DNA from: Ideonella alba
GTDB taxonomy: Bacteria; Pseudomonadota; Gammaproteobacteria; Burkholderiales; Burkholderiaceae_C
Length of the DNA stretch: 64,000 bases
Assembly (NCBI RefSeq): GCF_018069875.1
Contig: NZ_JAGQDF010000019.1
Location: 1-64,000, forward strand
Direction: 5' to 3'
Below the pieces are notes generated by a model. It did no database searches. It had not been told where the DNA came from and saw only the letters and a program-made list of their open reading frames with translations. Positions 7,950-30,655 of the stretch are shown in pieces (within the stretch, counting starts at the first letter, position 1; every line of letters starts with the position of its first letter). Position numbers and translations under genes: made by a program.

Positions 7950-7959
7950 TGCCGCCGTC

Positions 7960-12618: not shown

Positions 12619-13086
12619 TCAGTCGATGGCGCGCAGGATCTGGCGGCTCTCGCGGTGCTCGATCGCGAAGTCGCGCAGCTTGTAGAAGGCGTCTTCCAGG
12701 TGGTCGGCGCCCTTCCAGATCAGGCTGTTGATCGCGTACAGCGTGGCGGTGATGCCGGCGGCGTTGTAGCTCATCGTTTCCTCAAAGCCGTTCGGCGCAC
12801 GAACGACGAAGACGGGACCGGCCTGGTCGGCTGTGACCTTGGCCTCGGGCGCCAGGTAGAAGCCGCCGTTGGACAGGTCATAGAACTGCCAATAGCCGCC
12901 GTGGTACTCGGGGCAGAGGTTGCCCATCCAGCCGTACACCTCGGCTTCAGCCTGGCCGTAGTGTCGCGGTCCGAAGACGCGTGGCAAGAATGCCAAGCGC
13001 AGGTGGCCAGGCACGAGTGTCGGGAGGATGGTGCGTTGATCGTCGGCAGGCGACGCGGACGCAAGGCAGAGGGCTGTGTCAGCCAT
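12619..13086 (-). CDS. ArdB/KlcA-family antirestriction protein
   Basis: The 155-residue protein matches the ArdB/KlcA family in length and motifs: LPRVFGPRHYGQAEAEVYGW, LCPEYHGGYWQFYDLSNGGF and a helical C-terminus. These proteins block type I restriction enzymes of the recipient cell shortly after conjugation. The start at 13086 has AGGAG upstream. Its long leader (13087-13353) contains the conserved hairpin described separately, so expression may be tied to the same control as other genes of this block. Confidence 0.85.
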   Translation of the reverse strand: MADTALCLASASPADDQRTILPTLVPGHLRLAFLPRVFGPRHYGQAEAEVYGWMGNLCPEYHGGYWQFYDLSNGGFYLAPEAKVTADQAGPVFVVRAPNGFEETMSYNAAGITATLYAINSLIWKGADHLEDAFYKLRDFAIEHRESRQILRAID

Positions 13087-13353
13087 GGAGGGCTCCTTTC
13101 GGGGGATGAAAGAAAGAAGCCGAGAGCATCCCCAAACCGGGATGGACTCCCGGCGCGGGTTGCGATCACACCTTCGAGCTGATCGGGGAGATCAACTGCC
13201 GCACTTCTCAGAAGGCCTGTGCGGTCGGGGCGACGGTGACGCGGTCAGCGGCTCAAAGATTGGCATGAGCGAGCCAGAAATTACCACACGTGCGGGCCGC
13301 TGCCAATGGGCAGAGGCATGAGCGAGTGGCGATGCTCTTCGAGCTGGTTCGAC
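13087..13353 (-). promoter_or_regulatory. multi-hairpin leader, copy G
   Basis: This intergenic region lies upstream of the ArdB/KlcA-like gene. It contains the family hairpin H1: stem CCGCAC (13199-13204) with GTGCGG (13219-13224) and a 14-base loop TTCTCAGAAGGCCT. Next to it is a weaker GACGG-type hairpin at about 13231-13246. Closer to the gene a long hairpin pairs GGGGATG (about 13102) with CATCCCC (about 13127). The loop is one base away from copy F, while the surrounding sequence differs. Confidence 0.5.
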
Positions 13354-13728
13354 CTATCCCAGCAGGACCTCCAGCAGGGGAACGCGCCGCTCGTCGCGTC
13401 GCCGTCCCTGCATGGACGAGTGCTTGTCCACCTGCTCAAGCAGGCAGGCCAGCAGCATGCACAGCCCGGTGGGCTCGGTCACCGAGCGGCGCCTGTTGCG
13501 TCCGTAGTGGGGCAGCGCGCCGGCGATCAATCCTTCAAAGGCCAGCACACGCCAGGGATCAGCGCCCAGCTCCGCCAGGCTCAGCTCAGCGCCGAAGCGG
13601 GTTCGGATTTCTCCCACCAGGTCTTGGCGCGAGACGGCAGCGTAAAAGGCCTCGGACGTGAAATCACGGCCGAGGCCCCGGTCGATGGCGGCTGCTACAT
13701 GGATAGCCATTCTGATCAGCTCAGCCAT
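13354..13728 (-). CDS. unknown ICE protein (about 124 aa)
   Basis: The ATG at 13728 gives 124 residues; a TTG at 13794 in the same frame would add 22 and cannot be excluded because neither start has a strong ribosome binding site. The protein is helical (AELIRMAIHVAAAIDRGLGR, DPWRVLAFEGLIAGALPHYG) and ends in a basic segment (QGRRRDERRVPLLEVLLG). I recognise no family. The 240 bases upstream, towards the LuxR gene, are richer in A and T and may hold its promoter. Confidence 0.5.
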   Translation of the reverse strand: MAELIRMAIHVAAAIDRGLGRDFTSEAFYAAVSRQDLVGEIRTRFGAELSLAELGADPWRVLAFEGLIAGALPHYGRNRRRSVTEPTGLCMLLACLLEQVDKHSSMQGRRRDERRVPLLEVLLG

Positions 13729-14036
13729 CGAAATCGTAGAGTTCAACTCTATTTTCCCAGTCGACGTCAGCCCAAGAAAAAGAGGCCCGGACAAGTATTC
13801 AACTCGCCGGGCAAATGTTCCTGGCGCGATGCCAGGAGGAGGGATTCGGCGGTTTCTCCCTGCGCCACAGGTTGGTTATTCTGTTTACCAGCCCCCACCG
13901 CGGGGAAGGTCGCAGAGATATTCCATGATGATTGCAAACAGATCCATTTCACCCTCACAGAGTTAATCCCGAACCGGGCATGGGGTGAATTACATCAATT
14001 CGGTGCCCACCGGTGCACTACCCAACTAGGTAGGTC

Positions 14037-14750
14037 CTAGCGTGGGTCCAACAATCCCAAGCGAGATGCTTTGACTGCTGCGGTGTGCTTGCTGGCGCAG
14101 TCGAGCTTGGCGGTAACGTTCTTCAAATGGAACTTGACCGTGTTGGCCGAGATCGAGAGTATTTGACCGATCTCCCAGGTTGACTTGCCCTCCATCGTCC
14201 ACTTCAGGATTTCGACTTCGCGGGGGGTCAAGGTGCTGACCGGGGCCGCCTCCACGCCCAGCAGCCTGACGGCGGCGTCCTGGGCGTAGGCGAGCGTGAG
14301 CTGGAGGTCTGCAATCAGCCGGGTCAGCTCGGCGTCGGAGTTGGGCAGAGGATCCGACCGGTCCACGCCCACGAGCAGATGCTGGCCGTTGGGCAGGTGG
14401 GTGGCAATGGCCACGCCATGCCGATAGCCCCATGCGGACTGCTCCTCGAACAGATCGTGGGCACCCGCCTCCTCGTACGTCCGGCGGTCCCACAGCACCG
14501 GTGTACTGACCCGTTTGAGCGCGGCCAGCACCGGATCGCGGCGTGAGGACGCCACGTTCGTGTACGCCTTCAGGAAACCTTCCGGCGTATTGCCTATCGA
14601 CCGAAAAGCCGGCGGGCCGACGGGCTTCTCCACGACCAGAACGGCGGTGATGGTTGCAAACTGGAAGTCGTGTGCAAACGCAACAAGGCGTTCTTGCAAC
14701 TCAGCAATCGAGGATGACCTTGCCAGCTGCAAAAAGTCGGAAAAAAGCAC
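14037..14750 (-). CDS. LuxR-type transcriptional regulator with autoinducer-binding-like domain
   Basis: Residues about 1-165 look like an autoinducer-binding domain: SSRRDPVLAALKR and TPVLWDRR carry the Asp-Pro and Trp positions of the acyl-homoserine lactone pocket. Residues about 172-237 are a GerE/LuxR helix-turn-helix (LTPREVEILKWTMEGKS, SANTVKFHLKNVTAKL). The GTG at 14750 has GGGAG upstream; the TTG at 14765 does not. No LuxI synthase is in the window, so it is a solo regulator that may sense host or neighbour signals. Its domain closely resembles that encoded at 55666-56358. Confidence 0.85.
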   Translation of the reverse strand: MLFSDFLQLARSSSIAELQERLVAFAHDFQFATITAVLVVEKPVGPPAFRSIGNTPEGFLKAYTNVASSRRDPVLAALKRVSTPVLWDRRTYEEAGAHDLFEEQSAWGYRHGVAIATHLPNGQHLLVGVDRSDPLPNSDAELTRLIADLQLTLAYAQDAAVRLLGVEAAPVSTLTPREVEILKWTMEGKSTWEIGQILSISANTVKFHLKNVTAKLDCASKHTAAVKASRLGLLDPR

Positions 14751-14869
14751 CGCGAACTCCCACAAAGGCGAACCGCCCTACCTACTCGGGCGGGTTGACC
14801 GAGGTCGAATTGTCAAGCAATCTGCCCAGACCGTGGCCACAAACCACAGGACATCAGGAAGGAAATTCC

Positions 14870-15283
14870 TTGAACCTACTTGCCTTCGCCAAGAGCGACC
14901 TCAACACCTATGCTGAAACCCTCTTCCAGCTTGAATTCAATCATGTCGACACCGACGTGAATCCTGACGACCCGGACGCCGAAATACCCTACGGTTTCAC
15001 GCTGTGGCGCTCGGGCGACGTTCACCTTGGCTGGGACTGGGTGACGCATGGCGAGATCCTGTTGCTCTTGGCACCGATGAACATCGTAACGAACACCAAG
15101 GTGCTGGGGAATGACGGCTGCACGTTGGCTGAGCGCGAGCAGATCCTCCTCCTCAATGCCATCGTTCACCGACTGCCCTGGCAAGCCACGGTCCGACAGC
15201 AGATGTGGGGTGACAGCGCGGCGCCGCCGGCAAGAAGCCGGGCGCTGCAAGGGCAAGCGCTCCTGGCCAGGGCCGGCAGGTGA
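14870..15283 (+). CDS. unknown protein (137 aa), divergent from the LuxR gene
   Basis: AGGAAGGA stands 7-10 bases before a TTG at 14870, which makes this start convincing. The first 100 residues are acidic and aromatic (NHVDTDVNPDDPDAEIPYGF, RSGDVHLGWDWV). The C-terminal tail is alanine/arginine rich and may be poorly conserved. No family is recognised. It is one of the few plus-strand genes in this block and is divergent from the LuxR-type gene, which may control it. Confidence 0.5.
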   Translation: MNLLAFAKSDLNTYAETLFQLEFNHVDTDVNPDDPDAEIPYGFTLWRSGDVHLGWDWVTHGEILLLLAPMNIVTNTKVLGNDGCTLAEREQILLLNAIVHRLPWQATVRQQMWGDSAAPPARSRALQGQALLARAGR

Positions 15284-15296
15284 GCCGGCGCCGTGA

Positions 15297-15333
15297 AAAG
15301 AGGAGGGCCGTGGGGATGGTTCCTCCACGGCCC
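15297..15333 (-). terminator. rho-independent terminator after the SNF2-like gene
   Basis: A perfect 9-bp stem pairs GGGCCGTGG (15305-15313) with CCACGGCCC (15325-15333). On the minus strand it is followed by CCTCTTTTC, a modest T-rich tract. It lies just beyond the stop of the helicase gene. Confidence 0.65.
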
Positions 15334-15338
15334 GAGCC

Positions 15339-17642
15339 TCAGGCCAGCAACTGCTTGGCCAGCGCCACCTCAATCGAGTCTCCCGACTGATTGAGGACAT
15401 CCAGGCCGGAGTCCGGCATGTCGCCAGAGGTGGACTGCGACACCGAGATCTTCTTGGCCATCAGGGACAGGCACTCCATCTGGGCGCATCCCTCGTAGCC
15501 GAGGAAATGCACCTCGACGTTGACCCGCTGGCCAATGCGCCACGAGCGCCGGCTGGCTTGCTGCAAGGTGTAGACGTTGTAGCCCGACTGCATGAACACG
15601 ATGGTGGGGAACTCCAGCATGTCCAGGCCGGTCTTCACCAGCTCCGGGTTGGTCACGATCACATCGACCTGGCGGTCGACCTGTTCCATCAGCCAGTCTT
15701 CGCGCTTGGCTGCCTCGACGCCGGCCCGCAGCACCGCGACCTTGAAACCTTCAGCCTCCAGCAGAGCCTTGAGCCGCGCCGAGGTGTCTCGGGTCCCCGT
15801 GTAGACGGTGTAGACCAGGGCGCGCCGTCCAGCTCGCTTGGCCTTCCGACACAGCGCCAGCAGCTTGCGCTCCTTGGGCATGGGGGTGAGCTCATCGAAC
15901 AAGGCCGGTACGCTGGCCAGCGTGGTCTTGCGGTGCGGGTGCAGCACGGTCTCCGGACGGAAACAGCAGTCCGGCCACGCCAGAAGCGCATTGAGCACGA
16001 CCCCCAGAAGACTCTGGTCGCCGGCCCGCAGCGCCTGTCGCAGCGCCTCCTTCAATGAGTTCGCCAGTCCGCGGTAGGCCGCTTCCTGCTCCGGCGTCAT
16101 GGGCACACCGGTGTAGAACTCGTCGTAGGGAGGCAGCACATTGCCGCCGATCTCCCTGAGCTTCAAAAAGGCCGTGCAGGGCAGCACGTAGCGCATCACG
16201 CCCAGTGGTCCGAACCCGGGTGCCTTGGCTTCGCGATGCGTCACGCTCTTTCCTTTGGCCGTTCGGTGCGATCGTTCGTCCGCTGCACTGCTGGTCTTGT
16301 AGATGTCCTTGACCACGCCGTGGGTGCGCATGAATGCCCAGCTCGCCGATCCCAGTGAACCTCGCTGGTACCGAAAGCCGTCGTGGACCATGGCCGCCGG
16401 GTTCATCCGGAACAGCAGGTAGAACAGGTCATCGGCATAGCCGCCCATCAGCGTGCCCGTCAGCAACAGCGTCTTGCGGCACTGGCTGGCCAGCACACCG
16501 AAGGCTTGACCTTGGGCGCTGCCGTCGTTCTTGAACTCGTGGCCCTCATCTGCCACCATCAATCCGAAAAAGCCCCTGGGCAGGTAGCGCTTGATGAACT
16601 CGGTGGGCTGGTAGCCTCCCTGACCAAACGAGAACTCCATGTTGGCCATGGCCCGCTCCATGCGCCGCGCCTGCCGGTCACTGAAGAACAGATCGCCCCG
16701 GTCGTCCATCAGGTTGATGAACTCGTAGACGTTGTCTTCCAGCATCCCGCCGAGCATGTCCTCCCCGAAGGCGTCGATCAGCTTGTCGGCCGTCTTGTCC
16801 CCGATGGTGGGCAGCTGGGTGATGGAGTCCTTCAGGATCTCGCGCCGGGTCCTCGGTGCCGTGCCAGGACGAACGAGCGACCACAGCGCGGCATGGCAAT
16901 GCGCGCAGCGCATCTGGCGGACATTGAGCCGCGACGAGGCCTCCTCAGGAGCAAGCGGCCGGTCCGTGCCATCGGTGTCTGGCACGGTGATCGGCTCGTA
17001 GCAATCCGGACAGGCAGCCACAGAGGACGTGGCCTTGGCCAGACGCTCCGGGCCGATCATCTCCAGGTCGATCAGTCGCCGCTTCACAAAAACCGGCACC
17101 CAGTTGAAGCCCATGCGCATGCGCACACGGCCCATGACGTAGAACTCAGGGGCCGCAGCGCGGCCACTGACCAGACGCAGTTGCAGGAGCTTCTTCAGGG
17201 TATCCGGACCGTTAAGGATCCAGACCGTGGCGCCGGGCACCGTCTGCTTGATCTCGCGCCGCCACTTGTAGACCAGGTGGGGAGGGCAGATCACCAGCGT
17301 GCGTGGGAAACCCAGGTGGTGCATCAGCCAGGCCGTGGCGATGGCCATCATCGTCTTGCCGGTCCCCATCTCGGCGTTGATCACGGCGGAAGGGTGGCCA
17401 GCATCGACGAGGAGTCGGCAGACCGCATGCACGACGTCCCGCTGCGCAGCAAATGGTGCCCGGGTCAGCTGGTCCAGCATGGCATTGAGCGACGGGCTCT
17501 GCTGCCCATCGTAGATCGGCGGGTTCTGGACTCGGACGGCATCGACGAGGCTGCTGCGGTACTCCCGCACGAAGTCGCCAATGGACATGGACTCACCCGC
17601 ACTTGCGGTGGCGGGCTGTTCGATCAGATCGGTATCAGACAT
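15339..17642 (-). CDS. SNF2/DEAD-like helicase with zinc-binding insertion
   Basis: The 767-residue protein has a complete helicase core: Walker A EMGTGKT near residue 92, VICPPHLVYKW (Ia), VADEGHEFKN (Walker B), LLTGTLMGG (III), ALVYTVYTGTRDTSARL (IV) and YTLQQASRRSWRIGQ (VI). A zinc-binding insertion (CPDCYEP and CAHCHAAL) splits the first RecA-like half, and extra length separates the halves. The ATG at 17642 follows GGAG. Such proteins are regular members of clc/PFGI-1-type elements and probably act on element DNA during replication or transfer, but the exact role is unknown. Confidence 0.8.
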   Translation of the reverse strand: MSDTDLIEQPATASAGESMSIGDFVREYRSSLVDAVRVQNPPIYDGQQSPSLNAMLDQLTRAPFAAQRDVVHAVCRLLVDAGHPSAVINAEMGTGKTMMAIATAWLMHHLGFPRTLVICPPHLVYKWRREIKQTVPGATVWILNGPDTLKKLLQLRLVSGRAAAPEFYVMGRVRMRMGFNWVPVFVKRRLIDLEMIGPERLAKATSSVAACPDCYEPITVPDTDGTDRPLAPEEASSRLNVRQMRCAHCHAALWSLVRPGTAPRTRREILKDSITQLPTIGDKTADKLIDAFGEDMLGGMLEDNVYEFINLMDDRGDLFFSDRQARRMERAMANMEFSFGQGGYQPTEFIKRYLPRGFFGLMVADEGHEFKNDGSAQGQAFGVLASQCRKTLLLTGTLMGGYADDLFYLLFRMNPAAMVHDGFRYQRGSLGSASWAFMRTHGVVKDIYKTSSAADERSHRTAKGKSVTHREAKAPGFGPLGVMRYVLPCTAFLKLREIGGNVLPPYDEFYTGVPMTPEQEAAYRGLANSLKEALRQALRAGDQSLLGVVLNALLAWPDCCFRPETVLHPHRKTTLASVPALFDELTPMPKERKLLALCRKAKRAGRRALVYTVYTGTRDTSARLKALLEAEGFKVAVLRAGVEAAKREDWLMEQVDRQVDVIVTNPELVKTGLDMLEFPTIVFMQSGYNVYTLQQASRRSWRIGQRVNVEVHFLGYEGCAQMECLSLMAKKISVSQSTSGDMPDSGLDVLNQSGDSIEVALAKQLLA

Positions 17643-17737
17643 GGCATCTCCAGCAGAGGAAACAAGAAGGGGCAAGGCCCGCCTCGGTTGAGGCAGGCCC
17701 TGCGGGGGAGGAAGAGACAGGGGCGCAGCCCAGTGGG

Positions 17738-17938
17738 TCAGTCGAGACGACAGCCGTCGGCATCGAAGGCAGCGAGCACGGTGGCGCCGAGCCACCAGGT
17801 GTCCAGGTCGTCCTCGCAGGCGACGGCGTAGGTGCCATCACCTTCGTGAACGACGTAGCGCTCCTGCCCAGACCGCCGGGCGCGTGCCGAGGCTTTCGCG
17901 CAGGCCTGCTCAAAGCTCAGGTGGTCCAACGTGGCCAT
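17738..17938 (-). CDS. small unknown protein (66 aa)
   Basis: The start at 17938 has GAGGTG upstream. The protein is acidic and includes FEQACAKASARARRSGQERY followed by a compact beta-type segment (VVHEGDGTYAVACEDDLDTW). It has no membrane segment. It starts 7 bases after the stop of the preceding gene, which implies co-transcription. No family is recognised; small proteins with this layout are common on mobile elements. Confidence 0.55.
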   Translation of the reverse strand: MATLDHLSFEQACAKASARARRSGQERYVVHEGDGTYAVACEDDLDTWWLGATVLAAFDADGCRLD

Positions 17939-17945
17939 GGGCACC

Positions 17946-18611
17946 TCAGGCGGCATGGAACAGCGCCACCTGTCCAGGTGTAGCGACTCCTTGACGAGCA
18001 GAAGGGGCCGTCTCAGGCAGCAGGCCATGGCGGACTTGCTCCGACACCCAGGACATGAAGTCCTGCGGCAACTCGATCCGCAAGGCGGACACGGGACCGG
18101 CGCTGGCAGGCCTCACGAGTGCCTGGACCGTCTGCAGGTGCGCGAGCACCGTCAGCATCCAGTGGTCCAGCAGCGGCACCGGTGACAGCTCCTGGATCAT
18201 TCGCCAGGCCTGTGCGGCTTCATGGGCGGCTTGGTGACCTTTGGGCCAGTCGCCTTGCAGGTGTTCCAGCAGCCAACCCGAGCCGGTGGCTGGATCGATT
18301 TTGAGCAGCGTCGGATCGAAGATCCAGGCGTGGAGCAGATTGCCGAGCAGACCCGATCGCGGCAGGCGTCCGGTGATCTTGTCCAAGCGCGCTGGATCGC
18401 CTACCAGAACCCGCATCACCTCGGCGCGCGAAGCGGGATCCTGCAGGGTCAGATCGTCTACACCGCCCTGGTCTGGCCGCTGATGAAGCCGCGCCATGAG
18501 CTGCTGGATCGAGGTGTCCCGGCCATAGACCGAGAGGAAGAGCATTTGGGAGCGATGGTCGGCGACGAGCGCGTCGACAAACACGTCCGACTGTTGTTCG
18601 AGAACGAACAT
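17946..18611 (-). CDS. unknown ICE protein (221 aa)
   Basis: The protein has an N-terminal half with VFVDALVADHRSQMLFLSVY and a tryptophan-containing middle (LLHAWIFDPTLLKIDPATGS). Its C-terminus (LPQDFMSWVSEQVRHG) appears helical. I recognise no domain or catalytic motif. A strong perfect hairpin, CCAGGCGGG paired with CCCGCCTGG (18650-18671), lies in its leader. Confidence 0.6.
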   Translation of the reverse strand: MFVLEQQSDVFVDALVADHRSQMLFLSVYGRDTSIQQLMARLHQRPDQGGVDDLTLQDPASRAEVMRVLVGDPARLDKITGRLPRSGLLGNLLHAWIFDPTLLKIDPATGSGWLLEHLQGDWPKGHQAAHEAAQAWRMIQELSPVPLLDHWMLTVLAHLQTVQALVRPASAGPVSALRIELPQDFMSWVSEQVRHGLLPETAPSARQGVATPGQVALFHAA

Positions 18612-18689
18612 GAGAACCTCCAGGTTTGAAGTGGAGGCGGGCTCCCGCGCCAGGCGGGAGAACCCGCCTGGCGGCAGTGAGATGAACGA

Positions 18690-19280
18690 TCAGATCAGGC
18701 CGCGTTCAGCCATGGAGCGGTGTCCGCTGGCGCCGACCACGACGTGGTCCAGAACGCGCACGTCGACCAGCGCCAAGGCTGACTTGAGGGCCTGGGTCAG
18801 GTGCTCGTCCGCGCGGGACGGCTCCAGGCTGCCCGAGGGGTGGTTGTGCGACAGGATCACGGCGCCAGCGCCATGGGCCAGCGCCCGCTTGACCACTTCC
18901 CTCGGGTAGACCGAGGTCTGTGTCAGCGTGCCCCGGAACATCTCCTCGATCGCGATCAGGCGGTGCTGGGCGTCAAGGAACATCACGACGAAGGCCTCGA
19001 AGTCATAGCCCTCGAAGTGCTGGACGAGGTAGGTCCCCACATCCGACGGCGACGTCAGATGGGGCTTGTGCCGCAGATCCTTGGCGGCCTGGCGCACGAG
19101 GAGTTCGCGTGCGCAGCTCATCAGGCTGGCGAGGGCCGCACGCCGATACTGAGGCGTGCAGCTGTAGCGCGGCATGACTTCCGCGCAGGTACTGGCTGTG
19201 GCCGCGTGCAGGCCGCGGGCACCGGCCAGCAGCAGATCTTCAAGGAGGTTGTCCGACAACCCTTTGGGATGCGAAATCAT
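18690..19280 (-). CDS. RadC-like JAB-domain protein
   Basis: The start at 19280 has AAGGA upstream and gives 196 residues. The protein lacks the helix-hairpin-helix part of chromosomal RadC but has the JAB/MPN metalloprotease-like core. The zinc motif HNHPSG is present in [16 protein letters not shown] (about residues 140-155), together with an upstream glutamate (AIEEMFRG) and a downstream Asp region ([14 protein letters not shown]). RadC-like proteins are frequent on plasmids and ICEs. Their molecular function is unsettled, with DNA repair suggested and disputed. Confidence 0.85.
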
Positions 19281-19379
19281 GATGGGTCCTTTCCATAGAC
19301 GAAGTCGCTGCCACTGGGCAGCTGTGTTCAAGAGGAAGACGGCTGGCCAGCCCTGGGCCGGCCGGCAGCCTGTCTCGCG

Positions 19380-19703
19380 CTAGATCGATGCGCTTTCGAA
19401 CTGACCGTCGGCCTGGTAGGTCACTCGCCGGTTGCCCGTTGAGAAGACCTGGTCCAGATAGACCTGCTCAAACATCTCGGGAGGAACCGAGATGCCCAGC
19501 TCCGTCAGCTTGGCCTGGAAGAAGTCCAGGTCCAGCTCAAAGGCGTTCGGCTCGTCGAGGTTGACGTAGAGGTAGTCCTCCTGGTCCGGCCGGGGATCGT
19601 CTCGCTCCACCACCATGAAGAAGTGGCCGAGTGGTCGGTCCCAGCCCAGCAGGACGGTGACAGCTTCACCCTGGCGCTGTGTGCTGAAGTAGTGCTGGCT
19701 CAT
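19380..19703 (-). CDS. unknown conserved-type plasmid/ICE protein (107 aa)
   Basis: The product is acidic and aromatic, with SQHYFSTQRQGEAVTVLLGW at the start and LGHFFMVVERDD in the middle. It overlaps the stop of the upstream gene by four bases (ATGA), so the two are translationally coupled. I recall similar small proteins on large betaproteobacterial plasmids, but I know of no function. It has no signal peptide or membrane segment. Confidence 0.6.
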   Translation of the reverse strand: MSQHYFSTQRQGEAVTVLLGWDRPLGHFFMVVERDDPRPDQEDYLYVNLDEPNAFELDLDFFQAKLTELGISVPPEMFEQVYLDQVFSTGNRRVTYQADGQFESASI

Positions 19704-20203
19704 CGTGTGGCTCCTGATGGGCTCTGGCGCGCCGTCTCGGCACGCTGCAAGCTGTTCAAGTCCAGTTGATCGCTGGTCTTCGCAGGCTGATCAACACCTT
19801 CCAACATCACGGCGAACTCCACTTCACCGTTGGCATAGACCGTCGCACCCACCGTGAGCACGGCAGGCAGCGGGACATCACAGTCACAGCTGAGCTGCGC
19901 AGAGGTCTTGAGTGACCAGTCGCCGATCTCGTCGGCCTGCAGGATCAGCAGGGTGTTCCACAGGTCAAAGAGCCTGCGAAGAACCACCTGATCCAGAGAG
20001 ATCGCAACGCAGATCGGCAGCGCTGATTCCTCAGGCTGAGAGAACGCCAGCAGGGAGTGAACCTGCAGCGGTGCATGGAGTGGCTTGGGGTAGCGCAGAT
20101 CGATCATGTCGGTGCTCCTGGCGGTATGGACGTAAGCGGCCAATGCCGAAGTGACACCTTCAGGTTGCCCGCCTACCGGCGGGTGCTTGGGGGGTGCATT
20201 CAC
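19700..20203 (-). CDS. unknown ICE protein (167 aa)
   Basis: The gene is the first of a two-gene unit and has a long leader (20204-20593) with the recurrent hairpins. The N-terminal 30 residues are proline-rich and probably disordered. The middle has a regular alternation of hydrophobic and polar residues (LPICVAISLDQVVLRRLFDL) and two cysteines in LSCDCDVPLP. I recognise no family. Confidence 0.55.
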   Translation of the reverse strand: MNAPPKHPPVGGQPEGVTSALAAYVHTARSTDMIDLRYPKPLHAPLQVHSLLAFSQPEESALPICVAISLDQVVLRRLFDLWNTLLILQADEIGDWSLKTSAQLSCDCDVPLPAVLTVGATVYANGEVEFAVMLEGVDQPAKTSDQLDLNSLQRAETARQSPSGATR

Positions 20204-20593
20204 GGTGACTCCTTTCGGGATGAAGAGGGCCGTGCATCACCCTCCCCGTCGGGCTGGTGAGCCCGGCAGGGACAAGTTCTCGATCGAACCCCCACGCAGG
20301 CAGTGCCGGGTGGGCAACTGCCTGCGGCCGCACTTCTCAGGAGGCCTGTGCGTTCGTGGCGACGGTTACGCCGTCAGCGGCTCGTATCCCCGAGCAACGG
20401 GTAGGGAATCAGCTCTGCAGGCCTGCACATCAGGCCTGCAAGGCACCACAGGGGCTTTCTGAAGGGGTCGGGGTGCGACGCCTTCAAAAAGCCCCCTGGG
20501 CGGGGATCGCGGAGCGACCCGGCTCAGGGGAAACCCACCCGGAGGTGGGCAGGGAGGATGCGAATCAGCGCCTTGCCAGGATCTGGCCAGTGC
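20204..20593 (-). promoter_or_regulatory. multi-hairpin leader, copy F (gene-free 390 bp)
   Basis: This gap contains no gene I can support. Hairpin H1 is CGCAC (20329-20333) with GTGCG (20348-20352) and loop TTCTCAGGAGGCCT. H2 is GACGG (20361-20365) with CCGTC (20371-20375). A perfect 10-bp stem pairs 20416-20425 with 20431-20440. A further long hairpin pairs GGGGCTTT (about 20452) with AAAGCCCC (about 20487) and has an inner GAAGG/CCTTC stem. Confidence 0.6.
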
Positions 20594-21700
20594 CTACTGG
20601 ATCGTCACGATCTGGCCCAGGGTCACGCCAGGCGTGAGATCAAGGCCGCGGATCACCGTGACGAAGCGGTCGACAAGCACACGGGTCTCGGTGATCGAGC
20701 CGTCCTCAGCCGTCTCGGTCAGCACCTGGGTGTCTTTCACCTTGTGGGTTCGGCCTTTGACCAGCAAGCGGCGGCCTGCCTCCGACGTCACGACGCCAGA
20801 GACCTGTCCGGCCGCCAGCGCCAGTGCGAGGTGCCAGTCGGTCATCGCGCGCAGCGGTGGCCGCATGTCACCCAACCTGGGCTTCATGTGCAGGTCGAAT
20901 CTTGGCCACAAGCTGTGCCTGGCCAGACCGCCATCAAGCTCCGCGCGAAGTTGCCGGGCATCCAGGCGAACCACGGTCATGTTGAACTCATCGCCCGGCC
21001 TGATCGCCGGCACTTCATAGGGTTCCGTCGGCCAGATCTGGGGCAGTTCGCGCTGGTCGTCGCCGGCAGCAAAGGCCACCAGGCGCTTGACGATGCCTGC
21101 GTCCGGTGTGGCGGGTCGACGTTTGCGTCCCATCACCACGCACTGCTGGAACTGCTGCTCAGGCGCCAGGTGGACGCTCACGTCTTCGAAGTGGCGGGAG
21201 ACCAGGGAAGAAAGCTCCTGGTCCAGCACGTAGTACGGAACGATCAGTACCAGGATGCCGCCCGGCTGCAGGAGGTTGAACGTGCGCCGGCAGAAGATCT
21301 TCTCGTGGCGCAGGCGACCCATCGGGCGGTCTCCTGAGCCGACGGCATCGGTCACCAGGTCTCCGTAGGGCGGGTTCAGGAAGAGCAGTCCGAAGCTGCG
21401 GTCTGTCACACGCACTTCGTGCACGTCCGCGTGAGCGACGGTGCCGAGCACAGACTTGGCATGCCAGGCGCGTTCTTCATCCAACTCGACGCCGTAGCTG
21501 CTCACCACCGCGCCGCGGGACTGCAGGTGTTCGCTCAAGGCCAGCAGTGCAGCGCCCTCGCCGCAGCACGGGTCGATGATGCGAACGGGCTCCGGTGGAG
21601 CATCCAGCGCCGCGGCGATGCGCGCGAGCGTGTCGTTGTCAGTGGGGAAGTACCCGTTCTTGATGAAGTTCTGCGCGATGCGCGGGAAGATCAGGGCCAT
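20594..21700 (-). CDS. DUF6094-type N6-methyltransferase-like protein
   Basis: The 368-residue protein begins at the ATG at 21700, with GGAG about 8 bases upstream. The N-terminal half has the class I methyltransferase layout: SAM-binding motif IDPCCGEGAAL near residue 42 and catalytic NPPYGD near residue 110. This is the NPPY type of N6-adenine enzymes. The C-terminal 170 residues are a separate domain. I recall this arrangement as DUF6094, common on ICEs and plasmids. The substrate is inferred to be DNA of the element; there is no restriction partner. Confidence 0.75.
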   Translation of the reverse strand: MALIFPRIAQNFIKNGYFPTDNDTLARIAAALDAPPEPVRIIDPCCGEGAALLALSEHLQSRGAVVSSYGVELDEERAWHAKSVLGTVAHADVHEVRVTDRSFGLLFLNPPYGDLVTDAVGSGDRPMGRLRHEKIFCRRTFNLLQPGGILVLIVPYYVLDQELSSLVSRHFEDVSVHLAPEQQFQQCVVMGRKRRPATPDAGIVKRLVAFAAGDDQRELPQIWPTEPYEVPAIRPGDEFNMTVVRLDARQLRAELDGGLARHSLWPRFDLHMKPRLGDMRPPLRAMTDWHLALALAAGQVSGVVTSEAGRRLLVKGRTHKVKDTQVLTETAEDGSITETRVLVDRFVTVIRGLDLTPGVTLGQIVTIQ

Positions 21701-21794
21701 GGGGCAACTCCGAAGGAGAGGGACCCCAGGGCCTCTCGGGCGCTGAGGCCCGGTGGGCAAGAGGAGGGAGCCGACCAGCGACGCCAGGTGGACA

Positions 21795-22118
21795 CTACGC
21801 TGCCAGCGGCAAGGTCGGTCGCGCGGTGCGCTCGACTCTCCAGCCGGCACTTTCCAGATGCCACAGCAGGCCCATTGGCAGCAGGTCCATCGTCGACGGA
21901 TCCGGCAGCGCAGCGCCGATGGCCTGGTGGATGGGCCGGACATGCTGGGCATGCGGCTCCAGGGCCTGGGCGAGTAACGCAAGATCAGCGTCGTCGGCAT
22001 CGGACTGCCAGCTCAGGTAAGCACGCCAGAAGGCTTGCCGATTGGCTTCGATGGACAAGGTCGGTGACAAGGCCACGGGGGCGCGCAGCGGCGTCGCGGC
22101 CAGATCAATAGGGCGCAT
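21795..22118 (-). CDS. unknown small ICE protein (107 aa)
   Basis: The frame starts at an ATG at 22118 and is helical throughout (IEANRQAFWRAYLSWQSDAD, DADLALLAQALEPHAQHVRP). It has no recognised motif. In the 140 bases before it there are two palindromes: CGTCCC-TGCA-GGGGACG near 22151 and a CCGAGG/CCTCGG pair near 22198. This is the short type of leader seen before other genes of the block. Confidence 0.5.
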   Translation of the reverse strand: MRPIDLAATPLRAPVALSPTLSIEANRQAFWRAYLSWQSDADDADLALLAQALEPHAQHVRPIHQAIGAALPDPSTMDLLPMGLLWHLESAGWRVERTARPTLPLAA

Positions 22119-22261
22119 CGGGCATCTCCGATAGAGAAACTCAGGCGGAGTGCGTCCCTGCAGGGGACGAACGCCCCTGATGGGTGAAGAAGAGGGCCGA
22201 GGACCGAGGCACCAGGGCCTCGGATCGCTCGGCAAGTCATGACATAGGCGGGGAGCCTTGA

Positions 22262-22717
22262 TCAACGCATGACGATGTAGACCGCCGTGGCCGCCAGAAG
22301 CGCAAACGCCTCGGGCTGAGACAACAGTGCCCGGCGCAGCGCACCGAGGTGCTGGCTCAAGGCCTGGACCACCGAACGCAGGCCGCGCGATTGCTCGCGG
22401 GCCTTCGTCAGGGCCGCCTGAGCGGTGGCATAGGCCACCGCCTGGCGCTTGAGCGTGATCTTCGCGCGCAGGTACAGCGCGAAGGCGTCCACGTCGATCT
22501 TGTCGCTGTGCAAGTCCTTCGGGCAGCTGTCGAAGTGATCGACGATGGCCTTGGCCACCTCGAACTCGTCGATGTGCTCCACAAAGTACTGCCACATGTC
22601 CATGGTCTCGGCGTCGCCAGGGGCGGTGCCGGCCAGGAGCACGGGGGACGAGGCCAACGGTTCAGCGTGGTCAGGGATGACGACGCCGTCGAGGCCCGTG
22701 ATGGGAGGGAAGTTCAT
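22262..22717 (-). CDS. unknown ICE protein with C-terminal hydrophobic segment (151 aa)
   Basis: The ATG at 22717 follows TTTTGGAG. The acidic N-terminal half (MDMWQYFVEHIDEFEVAKAI) precedes a basic helical segment (LYLRAKITLKRQAVAYATAQ). The last 25 residues include LLSQPEAFALLAATAVYIVM, which could anchor the protein in the inner membrane. Function is unknown. The ribosome binding site lies in the loop of a possible hairpin between GGTGCGTC and GACGCACC at the start of the leader, which could limit translation. Confidence 0.55.
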   Translation of the reverse strand: MNFPPITGLDGVVIPDHAEPLASSPVLLAGTAPGDAETMDMWQYFVEHIDEFEVAKAIVDHFDSCPKDLHSDKIDVDAFALYLRAKITLKRQAVAYATAQAALTKAREQSRGLRSVVQALSQHLGALRRALLSQPEAFALLAATAVYIVMR

Positions 22718-23040
22718 GGTGCGTCTCCAAAAGAAATGGGGACGCACCAAACCCCAGGCTGGGGATGGATGACATCCCCACGAGGGTTGATGAGAGAAAA
22801 AACTCCAGGTCGACAACTTGGGGTTGCCGATCCACCGTTCTTGCAGGAGCCTATCGGTGTTTGAGGGCGTGGCGTCACGAGCCACAGTCGGACCGATTGA
22901 GTCGGTCAGGCGGGAACCGTCTCGATTCTGTTCTTCAAGCCCTCGTCAGGTCAAGACCGATCGTCGAAGGGCTTGAAGAACCCGGCTGCCAAGAAAGGCC
23001 TCACTGAAAGGCCAGCCGGGTGCGCCGCGGGTGCGACGTG
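22718..23040 (-). promoter_or_regulatory. multi-hairpin leader, copy A (gene-free 323 bp)
   Basis: No gene is seen here. From the gene outward: palindrome GGGGAT...ATCCCC (about 22760-22778); H1 CACCG/CGGTG (22833-22837 with 22855-22859, loop with TTGCAGGAGCC); H2 GTGGC/GCCAC (22869-22873 with 22881-22885); H3 GACCGA/TCGGTC (22891-22896 with 22902-22907). Then H4 TTCTTCAAGCCCT (22931-22943) pairs perfectly with AGGGCTTGAAGAA (about 22968-22980), and H5 CCCGGCTG pairs with CAGCCGGG. Copy D repeats this order. Confidence 0.65.
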
Positions 23041-23613
23041 TCAATGATCAGAGCGTTGGGTCCAGTGGCCCGTGTCCAGAGCGCGCTGCGCCTGTTCACG
23101 CTGGGGCCAGTACTCCTGCGATTCGCGGGTGTAAGGCCCTTCGTCGTTGTAGGTGCCCAGGTAGAAGCCGGCAGCGCTGTAGCAGATCTCCAGCGGCAGG
23201 TCCTGCCCCGAGCGCTGGGCCAGCAGTCCGAGCGGTGGCCGCTGGGCCTCGCCCTGCGTTTCAGGTGCAGGGCGTGACACGGTCGGCGACGCAGGCCCGC
23301 TCAGTGTGAGGGCACGCTGCAGCAGCGCTCCGCGCAGCTGAGTCCAGTGCTTCCCGAGTGGCGCCATCGCGGCGTCGGGCAGACGGTCGAGCAAGGCAAC
23401 GGCGTTCTGGGCCAGGTCAGCAATCTGGGCCATCCGCACCAGGTGGGTTTCCACCATCCTCTGGCCCTCTGCCGTGGCGTGCAAATGTGCGGCCAGCAAC
23501 AGCCGAACCGCTTCGTCCCAGCTGCGCAGGCCGAGGTCGATGGTGCTAAGTTGCTCGCCAGCGCGGACGTGGGCTTGGCCGCTGATGGTGACGTGATGAG
23601 GGTGCATGGACAT
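23041..23613 (-). CDS. unknown ICE protein (190 aa)
   Basis: AAGGAG precedes the ATG at 23613; a second ATG two codons on is possible. The first 110 residues are helical (DEAVRLLLAAHLHATAEGQ, VETHLVRMAQIADLAQNAVA). A proline-rich linker follows, then a C-terminal part with YSAAGFYLGTYNDEGPYTRE. I recognise no family. It lies between leaders A and B and is therefore likely to be transcribed or processed as its own unit. Confidence 0.55.
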   Translation of the reverse strand: MSMHPHHVTISGQAHVRAGEQLSTIDLGLRSWDEAVRLLLAAHLHATAEGQRMVETHLVRMAQIADLAQNAVALLDRLPDAAMAPLGKHWTQLRGALLQRALTLSGPASPTVSRPAPETQGEAQRPPLGLLAQRSGQDLPLEICYSAAGFYLGTYNDEGPYTRESQEYWPQREQAQRALDTGHWTQRSDH

Positions 23614-24135
23614 CTCCTTGTCAAAGAAAAAGGTGGCCGCACCCCATGTCCGGGGTGAACGACCCCGGGGGTGGTTGAACGATCACACTCCAGGCACCTG
23701 GCGGCGCCCGCGAGCCCTTTCAGGAGCCAGCTCGCGTATGGGCGCGTCGTGACGTGACGCATTCGGACCGAAACCGACGGTCGGCGGTAGAAAAGCGCAA
23801 AAGGTTCCTTCAGGGCTCCATCCCCTCATGGTGAGAGGCGCAAGCACTCAAGGAACCCGGCCAATGGACCGGGCTCAGGATCGACTACGTCTGCTCTACC
23901 TGCTGGCCCATCCCCAGGCCCGCGTGCGGCGTGTCCGAACTCGCAGACGACGGACACCACTTCGATCCTCTTCACCGCTGCAACAGCAAAACGGCACCAC
24001 GCATGGGGGGCGTGGCCACCCAGGAATCATCTACCGCCAGTACTGCGCGGGCTTGCCGAAGCGCCCCGTTAGGCGCTCTGGAAAGCCCGCACGAGGCGGG
24101 CGTTGGAGCGATCGAGCCTTGTGGGCTCAGAACGC
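23614..24135 (-). promoter_or_regulatory. multi-hairpin leader, copy B (gene-free 522 bp)
   Basis: No gene is seen here. H1 is GCGAGC (23710-23715) with GCTCGC (23730-23735) and a loop containing TTTCAGGAGCC. H2 is GCGTC/GACGC (23744-23748 with 23756-23760), and H3 is GACCG/CGGTC (23766-23770 with 23778-23782). H4 pairs GGTTCCTT (23803-23810) with AAGGAACC (23850-23857) and is followed by CCCGG...CCGGG. All stems differ from copy A while the H1 loop is kept. The stretch 23880-24135 has no clear feature. Confidence 0.6.
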
Positions 24136-24729
24136 TCAGACTGGCACGTCGCTGGACCAGGTCTGGCTCTTCACGTCGAAGGTGTAGCCCAGCGCCTTGA
24201 GCCGGTCCCGCTGCTGCCGGAACTGCATGCGATCGATCGTCGGGTCGAGCTTCATGGCTTGCCGCTGTTCCAGCAGCGGGTACAGCTCAGCACCGAACAG
24301 GGCCTGGTCGTCGGGCGCGGGCTCATCCGCCGGTGCAGCGCGAGGCCGTCGCGCTGCAGACGGACTTCCCTGGTCAACCGCTTCGACAGTGGCGGCTCGC
24401 TCGTCGCGTGGCGGCGTGGGATCCGCAGGATCGGGCTCAGGCGGCAGCGCCGTTTGAGCAGCGTCCGGCGTCTCATCGGCCTCGTCGATGTAGATCGCCT
24501 CCAGGTTCGCACGGACCTTGACGAAGACCTTGCCGCGCCAGGAGAACGAGTCGGGCTCGATCCACTTGATGACGAACTCGCCGGTGTATTTGCCGGGCTC
24601 GAACTCTTCGATCAGGGCGTCCTTGACCTCGAACTCACCGATCTCGGTGCACAGGTCGCCAATGTTGAACTCACCCTTGCGGCCGCGCTTGCGCGTGACG
24701 ACGAGTGTGCCTCGGACTGAGATGGGCAT
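24136..24729 (-). CDS. DUF3275-family ICE protein
   Basis: The ATG at 24729 has AAAGGAG upstream and gives 197 residues. The N-terminal 85 residues form a beta-rich domain (ISVRGTLVVTRKRGRKGEFN, FEPGKYTGEFVIKWIEP), which I recall as DUF3275. A long acidic, proline- and alanine-rich linker (about 85-145) follows, and then a C-terminal helical piece ending in FDVKSQTWSSDVPV. DUF3275 proteins belong to PFGI-1/clc-type elements; their role in element maintenance is unproven. Confidence 0.7.
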   Translation of the reverse strand: MPISVRGTLVVTRKRGRKGEFNIGDLCTEIGEFEVKDALIEEFEPGKYTGEFVIKWIEPDSFSWRGKVFVKVRANLEAIYIDEADETPDAAQTALPPEPDPADPTPPRDERAATVEAVDQGSPSAARRPRAAPADEPAPDDQALFGAELYPLLEQRQAMKLDPTIDRMQFRQQRDRLKALGYTFDVKSQTWSSDVPV

Positions 24730-25211
24730 AGCTAAGCTCCTTTGGGGCTGAGATGAAGCCTCGAAGGACGTGCCAGGCCCCTGGCGGGACTGGGGGTCCC
24801 GCGAAGCGGTTGGGGAACTGTGCCGGCTTGGCTGGCGAACTGGATGCGCCGTTCCTGGAAAAGACCGCGCGAGGCCGAAGCCCCGCGGTCCAGGAAGCAC
24901 GGTGCCTGCAGGGTTCAGCCGCAGGCGATTCGGCGGTTGGCCATCAGGCGCCGCCATGACGAGGCCCGGCCGAGCCGGGCAGCTTGCATCAATCGCACTC
25001 CAGGCCGTCAGCCAAGGCTGTCGGTGCACCGCTCTTGCAGGAGCCTTGCGGTGTCAGGGCGTGCGTCTTGGGAAAACGCACAAACCAGGCGCGGCTTGAT
25101 TGCCAAGAAGCCGCCACTCGGGAACAAACGTGAAACCTTGGCTTTCTGCACCGGCGGCCCGCGCCGGTCTAGAAAGCCGCCCCTAGGAAGGGGCAGGCTC
25201 AGGGAGGCTGG
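24730..25211 (-). promoter_or_regulatory. multi-hairpin leader, copy C (gene-free 482 bp)
   Basis: No gene is seen here. H1 is CACCG/CGGTG (25027-25031 with 25049-25053, loop TCTTGCAGGAGCC). H2 is GTGCGT/ACGCAC (25061-25066 with 25076-25081). Then GCGGCTT pairs with AAGCCGC (25091-25097 with 25108-25114), and GGCTTTCT pairs with AGAAAGCC (about 25140 with 25171) around an inner ACCGGC stem. GCCCCT/AGGGGC follows. Near the gene a GCGGGAC/GTCCCGC hairpin lies at about 24785. Confidence 0.6.
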
Positions 25212-25346
25212 TCAGTGGCTTGAAGTTGACCGCCGTTCACGATCGACGCGCTTGTCGGTCCAATGGACCCAGTACGCGACGGCCGCGGCGATGGCGATCA
25301 TTCCCCAGCCGATGACGACGGAGGCGATTTGCTGCTCAGTGCTCAT
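25212..25346 (-). CDS. very small membrane protein (44 aa)
   Basis: Translating the minus strand from the ATG at 25346 gives a 44-residue protein with one membrane helix (ASVVIGWGMIAIAAAVAYWV, residues about 8-27) followed by a basic tail (HWTDKRVDRERR). The start lies inside the last codons of the upstream gene (11-base overlap), so translation is coupled. Its size and layout fit a small inner-membrane partner of the next protein. The function is unknown. Confidence 0.5.
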   Translation of the reverse strand: MSTEQQIASVVIGWGMIAIAAAVAYWVHWTDKRVDRERRSTSSH

Positions 25347-25536
25347 CTTCGGGCTCCTTCAAAATCCAGACGGCCAGAGCCTCGAAGACCACGAATGCCA
25401 GGATGGCATGCGCGAAAACGAGGTACTGACCTGCTGACCACGCAGTGTAGCCAACCACCGCGAAGTACGCGATGGCGGCCTTGTCGATCACCCCGGCAAC
25501 GTGTTTGCGTTGCTCGGGATTGAGCTTGCGCTTCAT
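25336..25536 (-). CDS. small membrane protein (66 aa)
   Basis: The protein has a basic N-terminus (KRKLNPEQRKHVAGV) and two likely membrane helices, one around AAIAYFAVVGYTAWSAG and one around FAHAILAFVVFEALAVWIL. It ends in an acidic tail. Its start overlaps the stop of the DUF3577-like gene by four bases and its stop overlaps the next small membrane protein, so the three genes form a tightly coupled set. Confidence 0.6.
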   Translation of the reverse strand: MKRKLNPEQRKHVAGVIDKAAIAYFAVVGYTAWSAGQYLVFAHAILAFVVFEALAVWILKEPEDEH

Positions 25537-26009
25537 CAGGCCTCTGCCGGTTCGTGCCGCTGAGCACCACCGGCTTCGGCCGACTCATCGGCGCGTTGCG
25601 GGCGCTCGACCACAGGAATGTCCACCTTCTGGCCGTCGACCTTCGCAAAGGTCAACTGCAGCAGGCGGGCCTTGAGGCCTTCGCGCTGGACCACCTCGCC
25701 GGTGTTGCTGTCAGTGAACTCGTAGAAGTCAGGCTTGGGGTCACCGGCACGGAAGCCGACGATCACCTTCTGCTTGGCCTTCACCGCGTCCGCCAACTGC
25801 TGAACCGCTTCGAGCGCTTGCTTGCCGACGATGCGGCAATCGATCGAGACGTACTCGACAGCTGTGGACTCCCCCATCATCGCGTTGATGGTGCACGCCA
25901 GGTAGGCGGGCCCCTTCTTCGGCGTGACGGAGCGAACCCGGTTGAGGTAGCCGACACCTTCGACGATCAGGTTGAACATCGAGACGGTTTGGGCTTGTGC
26001 TTCAGGCAT
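25536..26009 (-). CDS. DUF3577 / STY4534-type ICE replication-associated protein
   Basis: The start at 26009 gives 157 residues. The sequence SMFNLIVEGVGYLNRVRSVT near the N-terminus, followed by KGPAYLACTINAMMGES and VEYVSIDCRIVGKQALEA, matches my recollection of the DUF3577 family, annotated as STY4534-type in PFGI-1/SPI-7-class elements. These resemble single-strand-binding or replication accessory proteins in their beta-rich core, but the biochemical role is not established. It is preceded by leader copy D and starts a coupled three-gene set. Confidence 0.75.
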   Translation of the reverse strand: MPEAQAQTVSMFNLIVEGVGYLNRVRSVTPKKGPAYLACTINAMMGESTAVEYVSIDCRIVGKQALEAVQQLADAVKAKQKVIVGFRAGDPKPDFYEFTDSNTGEVVQREGLKARLLQLTFAKVDGQKVDIPVVERPQRADESAEAGGAQRHEPAEA

Positions 26010-26283
26010 GGTGCATCTCCAGTGACAAGAAAAGGGGACGCACCCAGCCCCGCCGGGGATGGATGACATCCCCAGGGGGTTGATGGAACTGAACTCCAGG
26101 CTGCCGGCTTGAGGGCCGGCAGGTCCACCGCTCTTTCAGGAGCCTTTCGGTGTCTGGGCGTGGCGTAACGTGCCACGGTCGGACCGATTGAGTCGGTCAG
26201 GCAGGGAAACCTGGTTCTTCAAGCGCCCGGTGCAGTACTCAAGCGCTTGAAGAACCCGGCCTCAAGCCGGGGTCCACAGGAAG
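26010..26283 (-). promoter_or_regulatory. multi-hairpin leader, copy D
   Basis: The palindrome GGGGATGGATGACATCCCC lies at about 26056-26074, identical to copy A. It is followed by CTGCCGGC/GCCGGCAG (26101-26122). H1 is CACCG/CGGTG (26126-26130 with 26148-26152, loop TCTTTCAGGAGCC). H2 is GTGGC/GCCAC (26160-26164 with 26172-26176) and H3 is GACCGA/TCGGTC (26182-26187 with 26193-26198). H4 is TTCTTCAAGCGC (26215-26226) with GCGCTTGAAGAA (26243-26254), and H5 is CCCGGC/GCCGGG. Confidence 0.65.
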
Positions 26284-26469
26284 TCACAGACTCGCCTCGG
26301 CAACGAGACGACGCACTTCCATGATGCGATCGATGTCACGCTCCGAAAAGCGCGTCAGTCTGCGACCGATGAGGTGATACCACCACGCGGTCTCAAAGGG
26401 GACGCCGGCGGATGCCATGCGTTCGGGCGTGGCCTCATCGTGGCCAGGGAGGACGGCAGCGTGTGCCAT
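26284..26469 (-). CDS. small unknown protein (61 aa)
   Basis: The ATG at 26469 follows AGGAG. The protein reads as a compact helical domain (VPFETAWWYHLIGRRLTRFS, then RDIDRIMEVRRLVAEASL). It has no membrane segment and no recognised motif. It lies between leaders D and E at the edge of the minus-strand block, next to the plus-strand defence cargo. Confidence 0.5.
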   Translation of the reverse strand: MAHAAVLPGHDEATPERMASAGVPFETAWWYHLIGRRLTRFSERDIDRIMEVRRLVAEASL

Positions 26470-26700
26470 GGGGGCTCCTGTGTGCGCGGGCGACATTGCC
26501 CCCCGAGGACACACACGGCGGGTGCGCTCGGGGGCAATGCCACTCGGCAAGAGGAGATTCAACTCCCGAGTCCGGGCCTGACGGCTGGACCCCATCGCTA
26601 TTGCAGGAGCCTGACGATGTTGAGGGCGTGGCGTTTCGTGCCACTACCGGGCTGCAGGGCAGCCAGCAAGCAGATGGATTGTGAGCCTGCTGGCGGGCCA
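26470..26700 (-). promoter_or_regulatory. multi-hairpin leader, copy E
   Basis: A 13-bp stem pairs CATTGCCCCC-CGAG (about 26494-26507) with CTCG-GGGGCAATG (about 26527-26539) just before the small gene. H1 is CATCG/CGATG (26593-26597 with 26615-26619, loop TATTGCAGGAGCC), which differs from CACCG/CGGTG by paired changes. H2 is GTGGC/GCCAC (26628-26632 with 26640-26644). A GCCAGCA/TGCTGGC stem follows. The region 26701-26872 then holds the promoter side of the plus-strand cargo. Confidence 0.6.
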
Positions 26701-26817
26701 ACGTCAACCGGCCATATTGCCCAACCAAGTGTGAGCCCAACCGCGACACAGATGAGGGCGTGGCCCGCCGGGATCGGGCCCTTCCCGAGCCGGCCACTGG
26801 GCCCTGACTACAAAATA

Positions 26818-26833: not shown

Positions 26834-26872
26834 GACTCTGACATTGCGGATTCAGCAGAAGAAGGGCGCTTC

Positions 26873-30651: not shown

Positions 30652-30655
30652 ATCG

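Follow-up and report, generated by a model that had tools for sequence, protein, structure and literature searches.

Candidate pseudoknotted RNA leaders of seven genes in a PFGI-1/ICEclc-like element of Ideonella alba

We analyzed a window of 64,000 nucleotides from Ideonella alba (contig NZ_JAGQDF010000019.1, positions 1 to 64,000) that, judged by its gene content, is a portion of an integrative and conjugative element (ICE) of the PFGI-1/ICEclc-like kind. A sequence with several hairpins recurs in the intergenic regions of this element. The best explanation is that the copies act in cis as RNA leaders, within the 5' untranslated region of each of seven core ICE genes, and that they most likely gate translation. 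We put the probability of this explanation at about 0.68. The preliminary description of the stretch overlooked a pseudoknot that comparison of the copies makes well supported, in which the loop of hairpin H1 (GGCUCC) pairs with GGAGU(U) just past hairpin H0.

Results

Seven candidate leader copies ahead of minus-strand genes

The seven copies noticed earlier are all present, with H1 starting at 13199, 20329, 22833, 23709, 25027, 26126 and 26593. Every copy lies between gene calls, and in all seven cases the next gene is on the minus strand. The earlier view of these sequences as leaders is borne out by their position and by the pairing of the sense strand. Since the minus strand is the sense strand, the RNA has GGCUCCUG in its loop, and CAGGAGCC, the loop as first described, is the complement of this. 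Read on the minus strand, each copy consists of hairpin H2, a GCC linker, hairpin H1, hairpin H0 and a segment complementary to the H1 loop. The H1 loop is GGCUCCUG in five main copies, whose complementary segment is GGAGU, and AGGCCUUCUGAGAA or AGGCCUCCUGAGAA in two copies of a second subtype (subtype II), which precede the antirestriction gene and gene 19700-20203. The copies and the predicted pseudoknot arms are as follows.

26561..26644, minus strand: leader copy of the 61-aa gene 26284-26469; H2 and H1 at 26593-26644, pseudoknot 3' arm GGAGTT at 26561-26566; the same gene is led in genome G681.
26092..26176, minus strand: leader copy of the DUF3577 gene 25536-26009; H2 and H1 at 26126-26176, then H0, pseudoknot arm at 26092-26097.
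24996..25081, minus strand: leader copy of the DUF3275 gene (start probably 24729); H2 and H1 at 25027-25081, pseudoknot arm at 24996-25001.
23686..23760, minus strand: leader copy of gene 23041-23613; H2 and H1 at 23709-23760, pseudoknot arm at 23686-23691.
22801..22885, minus strand: leader copy of gene 22262-22717; H2 and H1 at 22833-22885, pseudoknot arm at 22801-22806.
20288..20375, minus strand: subtype II leader copy of gene 19700-20203; H2 at 20361-20375, H1 at 20329-20352 with loop AGGCCUCCUGAGAA, pseudoknot arm at 20288-20293.
13170..13246, minus strand: subtype II leader copy of the antirestriction gene 12619-13086 (PF03230); H2 at 13232-13246, H1 at 13199-13224 with loop AGGCCUUCUGAGAA, pseudoknot arm GAAGGT at 13170-13175.

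The preliminary description also held the CAGGAGCC loop to be constant. This is so in five of the seven copies; copies 13199 and 20329 have CAGAAGGCC and CAGGAGGCC, and in both, as in L162 (a second locus of genome G259; L and G numbers denote loci and genomes), the loop change is matched by a change in its partner. The third hairpin, H3, occurs in the quoted form in three of the seven copies (22833, 23709 and 26126). By itself the loop octamer is no commoner in the window than chance would have it (9 occurrences, 5.65 expected; 9 or more in 11 of 100 shuffles). The non-random part is the hairpin context, not the octamer itself.

Long inverted repeats (GTTCTTCAAGC..GCTTGAAGAAC) without a T tract stand directly ahead of two of the leaders, at 22930-22983 and 26213-26259, and a similar one precedes the copy at 15489 in L061.

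Covariation and spread to other genomes

These sequences form a real, covarying leader family. A covariance model, R1, built from four window copies and one relative, recovered the fifth main window copy at 46.4 bits and found copies in three further genomes: G259 (locus L060), G159 (four copies) and G681 (four copies). DUF3577 and DUF3275 are led both in L061 (G159) and in L164 (G681), and L164 also has a leader ahead of a gene whose product is homologous to the 61-aa protein (63% identity across 51 residues). The family-wide search with R1 gave matches in 14 of 399 genomes at E <= 0.01. Four were accepted (G000, G259, G159 and G681), the lowest accepted score being 32.3 bits. The other ten had one match each at 24.8-28.4 bits and were treated as chance; no pairing arm was seen in the five of these that were read (L138-L142), nor in L163, a match in the I. 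alba genome itself. The order-wide search gave matches in 51 of 300 genomes at E <= 0.1, and apart from the window leaders no match exceeded 27.8 bits.

Paired changes in H1 and H2 had been taken as a sign of selection on structure. We examined them in 19 model hits (14 distinct rows) in an alignment that was fitted to the structure. In these hits 93.5% of cells are paired and eight of the ten pairs are changed on both sides. The covariation score is 0.525, compared to a mean of 0.195 in shuffled alignments (0 of 500 as high) and at most 0.166 in slid controls. With 13 further pair types, the alignment does not stand out from shuffles (86 of 500 as high). At pairs 42-73 and 43-72 every departure is unpaired, because some rows fit H1 with a shift. 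The paired changes are thus real and, across four genomes, support selection on structure.

A predicted pseudoknot between the H1 loop and a downstream arm

Conservation of the H1 loop is probably due to its base pairing downstream. In L162, which was found by a model that does not include the pseudoknot, GGCCCC in the loop faces GGGGUU in the arm, so that a U to C change in the loop is accompanied by an A to G change in the arm. The subtype II copies have GCCUUC or GCCUCC in the loop and GAAGGU or GGGGGU in the arm. Among the aligned window-type copies the helix is paired in 11 of 11, with one pair double-changed and four constant; this alignment left out one of the 12 listed copies, L150 1464, which is near-identical to L136 1464.

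We also compared the fit of each leader's loop to its own arm with the fit to swapped arms, in a list that spans several leader types, was compiled by eye and from loop patterns with no part played by the pairing, and had H0 placed by folding alone. Own pairs fit better than swapped ones (p 4e-5 for 22 leaders, 2.4e-4 for 12 representatives and 0.0024 for 9 representatives). The H0 parse was wrong for L062a and L020, which were counted as misses. The best run differs from the proposed pairing in w26009 and L061b. A position-free version of the test is weaker (p 0.007 for 19 leaders, 0.016 for 9).

Several points weigh against this pairing and the leader structure built on it. The window-type arms were located by the pattern GG[AG]GT[TG], and the 11 of 11 is therefore partly by construction. 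Four of the five window-type arm pairs are invariant, leaving a single compensatory event. Sliding the alignment by one column gives more double-changed pairs over the whole structure (4 compared to 3), with fewer than half the paired cells, and the permutation tests ignore relatedness. A descriptor of H1, H0 and the arm is unspecific in GC-rich DNA, with 16 and 20 matches on the two strands compared to 7-15 per shuffled sequence. In four plasmid-borne ICEs (L130-L133) it matches 6 times in sense and 10 times in antisense, and this count consequently shows nothing. Only arms of 7-8 pairs stand out in those plasmids; all are in sense and inside stretches that Rfam calls radC RNA.

Other leader types ahead of ICE genes (L016, L017, L020, L062, L065, L066 and L132) have different loops and a similar arrangement of loop and arm.

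Relation to radC RNA

The motif was initially described as not known. That is true of Rfam models: a scan of the window gave no match at the gathering score, to radC, STAXI or any other family, and at lax E-values 12500-27200 and the single copy 22640-23000 gave only weak, unrelated matches. The radC model (RF01754) has a threshold of 40 bits; its best match in the I. alba genome (21.6 bits, E 0.11, 52713-52802, plus strand) is not at a leader and is probably chance. With no match to the radC model, the window copies are not members of RF01754. They do have an architectural relative in radC RNA, and we suggest from the shared layout that they are a variant beside it rather than a new kind.

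radC RNA occurs in 11 of 250 genomes of the family, with 3-8 copies in each, and in two of the plasmid ICEs that were scanned (L130 and L131). In all 11 radC-bearing genomes, one copy is within about 2.1 kb of the DUF3275 match. The loop of radC hairpin HB fits a segment after hairpin HC (CGGUC/GACCG, CGAUC/GAUCG, CAGACC/GGUCUG and others). Over 24 distinct loop/segment pairs, with the pairing unused in finding them, own pairs score 4.7 and swapped pairs 3.8 (permutation p 2e-4), and a score of 5 is reached by 11 of the 24 own pairs compared to 20% of swapped ones. A second pseudoknot unit (GCAUCC/GGAUGC and variants) fits with 6-8 pairs in all but one of the 15 distinct rows, the exception having 5 (p 0.0045; 24 of 31 radC instances parsed). 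Several radC RNAs (for example, L131 7548-7693) appear to hold both units, neither of which is in the structure printed by Rfam's model.

Some sequences bridge the two types. The CAUG outer stem of radC hairpin HA, absent from the window copies, does occur in two window-type relatives, L061 14164 and L150 320, the latter having one G.U pair. The DUF3275 leaders of G159 and G681 carry an H2 of the form CATGTTCC..CATG or CGTG, and radC HA in L005 is CATGTTCC..CATG. Common descent of the window leaders and radC RNA is likely on this comparison, and convergence in layout is possible.

Predicted folding of the sense strand and burial of the Shine-Dalgarno sequence

Folding of the sense strand is favored. 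Read in sense, the HB stems of 33 distinct radC instances contain 8 G.U pairs and no A.C (rows were taken with at least four Watson-Crick pairs, with no rule on G.U). In the window-type H1 and H2 stems, which were parsed by hand, there is 1 G.U and no A.C in 170, and H1 as read in L016 and L132 requires one A.C mismatch. The hand parsing and this mismatch make the strand evidence from the window type weak. Both sigma70-like sites of the region are on the sense strand, and their ends lie 34 bases upstream of H2 in copy 26593 and 40 bases upstream of it in copy 22833, although two sites are at chance level (1.5 expected).

Downstream of the pseudoknot, two genes have a predicted hairpin that would bury the Shine-Dalgarno sequence.

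26010..26044, minus strand: Shine-Dalgarno-burying hairpin GGTGCGTC..GATGCACC next to the ATG at 26009, with paired variant GGTGCTTC..GAAGCACC in L061.
22718..22748, minus strand: predicted Shine-Dalgarno-burying hairpin GGTGCGTC..GACGCACC next to the ATG at 22717.

Paired variants of the hairpin GGUGCGUC/GACGCACC occur in L061 (GGUGCUUC/GAAGCACC) and in L162 (CUGCUG/CAGCAG); in L136 1501 the hairpin is disrupted. The Shine-Dalgarno sequence has a predicted accessibility of 0.20 in six window leaders and 0.16 in 19 radC leaders, compared to 0.41 at 45 other starts in the window (p 0.025 and 1.6e-5). Pairing energy at the start codon differs from controls for the radC leaders. For the window leaders no difference from controls is seen (p 0.46), and gene 23613 has no Shine-Dalgarno sequence by the rule applied; both results weigh against translational gating.

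Genes and other elements in the window

A PFL_4669 protein scores above its own profile cut-off. Matches to PFGI-1 ParB and to an STY4534-like DUF3577 protein are under the NCBIfam cut-offs, and the latter exceeds the Pfam cut-off for DUF3577. Further ICE genes encode DUF3275, DUF6094, helicase, RadC, LuxR-type and antirestriction proteins. The order DUF3577, DUF3275, DUF6094, helicase is identical in the five plasmid-borne relatives examined (L130-L134). Among named relatives the nearest is Ideonella aquatica 4Y11 (L060), whose DUF3275 protein is 97% identical. Searched with a single DUF3275 protein, genome contigs gave one related locus; viral contigs searched with the DUF3577 protein gave none. 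The DUF3275 gene probably starts at 24729, with AAAGGAG ahead of its ATG, and not at 24957 or 25029, the starts that the open frame offers upstream.

The LuxR-type regulator (14037-14765) has an autoinducer-binding domain and is inside the ICE. On the plus strand, 26825-39085 encodes a TacA-like antitoxin, a DUF499 protein and a PLD-domain SNF2 helicase, perhaps defence cargo. An IS91-type transposase adjoins a phage-type integrase at 6756-8865, and there is a partial Tn3 transposase at 59450-60397.

Discussion

Proposed translational gating and its alternatives

We suspect that the leaders are transcribed and that each would present, from 5' to 3', hairpin H2, the pseudoknot unit formed by the H1 loop and the arm after H0, and then, near most of the genes, a pairing that buries the ribosome-binding site. 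The upstream fold could decide whether the buried site opens, and could do so by itself, by way of ribosome or S1 standby, or together with a factor of the ICE or the host. The genes with leaders might then constitute one post-transcriptional regulon.

Translational gating is our first choice and transcription attenuation its main rival, and both may operate. In attenuation, the leader would decide whether polymerase stops at an intrinsic terminator just ahead of the gene, or the 5' fold would act as an antiterminator. Two candidate terminators are inside window leaders.

26034..26073, minus strand: terminator-like hairpin followed by TTTTCTT, alternative to the Shine-Dalgarno hairpin (-28.4 kcal/mol).
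22739..22778, minus strand: terminator-like hairpin with a T-rich tail in the leader of gene 22717, from a terminator scan.

An arm of the Shine-Dalgarno hairpin can alternatively join such a terminator-like hairpin, which has a T-rich stretch. Among 14 leaders (the seven in the window, six window-type relatives and L132), eight have a terminator-like hairpin with a T-rich tail between the pseudoknot and the gene, compared to 0 of 14 in antisense and a shuffled mean of 0.85 (maximum 3 in 20 rounds), a result that counts against gating of translation. The region as a whole has 18 terminator-like matches where 7.5 are expected, 15 of them on the sense strand; three of these 15 separate a pseudoknot from its gene, and one precedes the revised DUF3275 start. 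A UUCG terminator-like hairpin is found at 24887-24868, between leader copy 25027 and that start. Nevertheless, we think attenuation the less likely of the two. Six of the 14 leaders, including three of the seven in the window, have no terminator-like hairpin, the tails contain C, and two of the eight leaders with a terminator are near-identical (L061a and L159). In the radC-type leaders just 1 of 19 has such a hairpin, even at a laxer threshold. L132 holds a strong terminator, and by eye other divergent leader types seem to hold one as well.

The repeats could instead act as DNA. If the palindromes were operator or promoter sites of an ICE regulon, bound by a protein, one would understand why the 3' half of the palindrome GACCG..CGGTC (H3) is 12 bases before H2 in nine of 16 window-type copies, and why a motif search gives a log-likelihood ratio of 118.6 compared to a maximum of 96.6 among 15 shuffled sets, although the copies are related. 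A DNA site does not explain stems that differ yet stay paired, or a loop and downstream arm that change together. Promoter-like words upstream also count against it: they precede three of 16 window-type copies, compared to a mean of 0.75 and a maximum of 3 in shuffles, and nine of 18 radC leaders, for which shuffles give a mean of 0.93 and a maximum of 5. We regard this explanation as improbable.

Less probable still is a single-stranded-DNA promoter of the Frpo/ssi type, in which folding of the transferred strand would bring in RNA polymerase and allow immediate expression of establishment genes in the recipient. Repeated hairpins do precede antirestriction and other ICE genes here, in a region that also has methyltransferase-like, RadC and helicase genes, and one report describes Frpo/ssi-type promoters ahead of anti-defence genes in plasmid leading regions (PMC11541004). 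Both Frpo/ssi and the window leaders are thus structured DNA ahead of establishment or anti-defence genes. Unlike Frpo/ssi, however, the window stems hold no promoter duplex: at 5-8 pairs, H1 and H2 are probably too short for a -35/-10 duplex, and neither of the two sigma70-like sites is inside them. In addition, the G.U pairs are read in sense and the sense strand appears to fold, whereas Frpo would fold the template strand. We rejected both this reading and that of CsrA-type sites. CsrA prefers GGA in a hairpin loop, and plus-strand RNA would put GGA in the CAGGAGCC loop of a CsrA/Rsm-type hairpin, but this is very improbable since the plus strand is antisense to all seven genes, the G.U bias supports the minus strand and the loop of copy 13199 has no GGA.

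Comparison with known systems

Like the window leaders, the Rfam family STAXI has pseudoknots, and these are located close to ssb and to genes for topoisomerase, antirestriction and integrase functions (Weinberg et al. 2010, PMC2864571). It has tandem pseudoknots, unlike the window leaders, which have no STAXI match. In ICEclc, a shared 27-bp promoter motif has been reported (PMC9286271); the passages of that paper that were covered mention neither hairpin nor leader, and none of the words looked for occur in two others (PMC7423338 and PMC13098234).

The tisB mRNA offers a possible precedent for translational gating. In that mRNA, standby translation of a sequestered site requires a pseudoknot near the 5' end (PMC7708055). 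The window leaders would resemble it in having a predicted pseudoknot near the 5' end, far upstream of a ribosome-binding site that is predicted to be sequestered; tisB is an E. coli toxin mRNA and is unrelated to them.

The closest comparison is with radC RNA. RF01754 is named in Weinberg et al. 2010 and in the CaCoFold paper (PMC7657543), and the latter places radC among families whose published structure has no covarying pairs. The literature searched gave no function for it. Both radC RNA and the window leaders are recurrent, ahead of genes in the same ICE neighborhood, and both have a hairpin, a linker, a loop hairpin, a further hairpin, a pairing arm and a Shine-Dalgarno sequence that is predicted to be buried. 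The loop-arm pairing joins the HB loop to the segment after HC in radC RNA and the H1 loop to the arm after H0 in the window leaders. The linker is CCCAG-like in radC RNA, and one copy among the window leaders has GCCCAG. The HB loop is CUUCAA; the window loops are CCUGAAAG or similar (GGCUCCUG(C/A)AA, AGGCCUCCUGAGAA or AGGCCUUCUGAGAA). A descriptor scan did not find the second radC pseudoknot unit (GCAUCC/GGAUGC) in the window leaders.

Given the same architecture in radC RNA of sister ICEs, the two are probably branches of one wider class of ICE leaders. More tentatively, and at somewhat less than even odds, we speculate that radC RNA and the window leaders belong, together with several further types of leader in PFGI-1/ICEclc-like elements, to a single large class of pseudoknotted 5' leaders that diverges fast. 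This class would run, at the RNA level, a regulon of genes for ICE replication and establishment, with each lineage co-evolving its own loop-arm pair. If so, a widespread family of mobile elements governs core genes through RNA. A second leader of different sequence, in the same ICE family and place and with the same loop-arm pairing, reveals which parts are kept, namely the pairing and the buried ribosome site, and such a comparison makes the function of the leaders testable with reporters.

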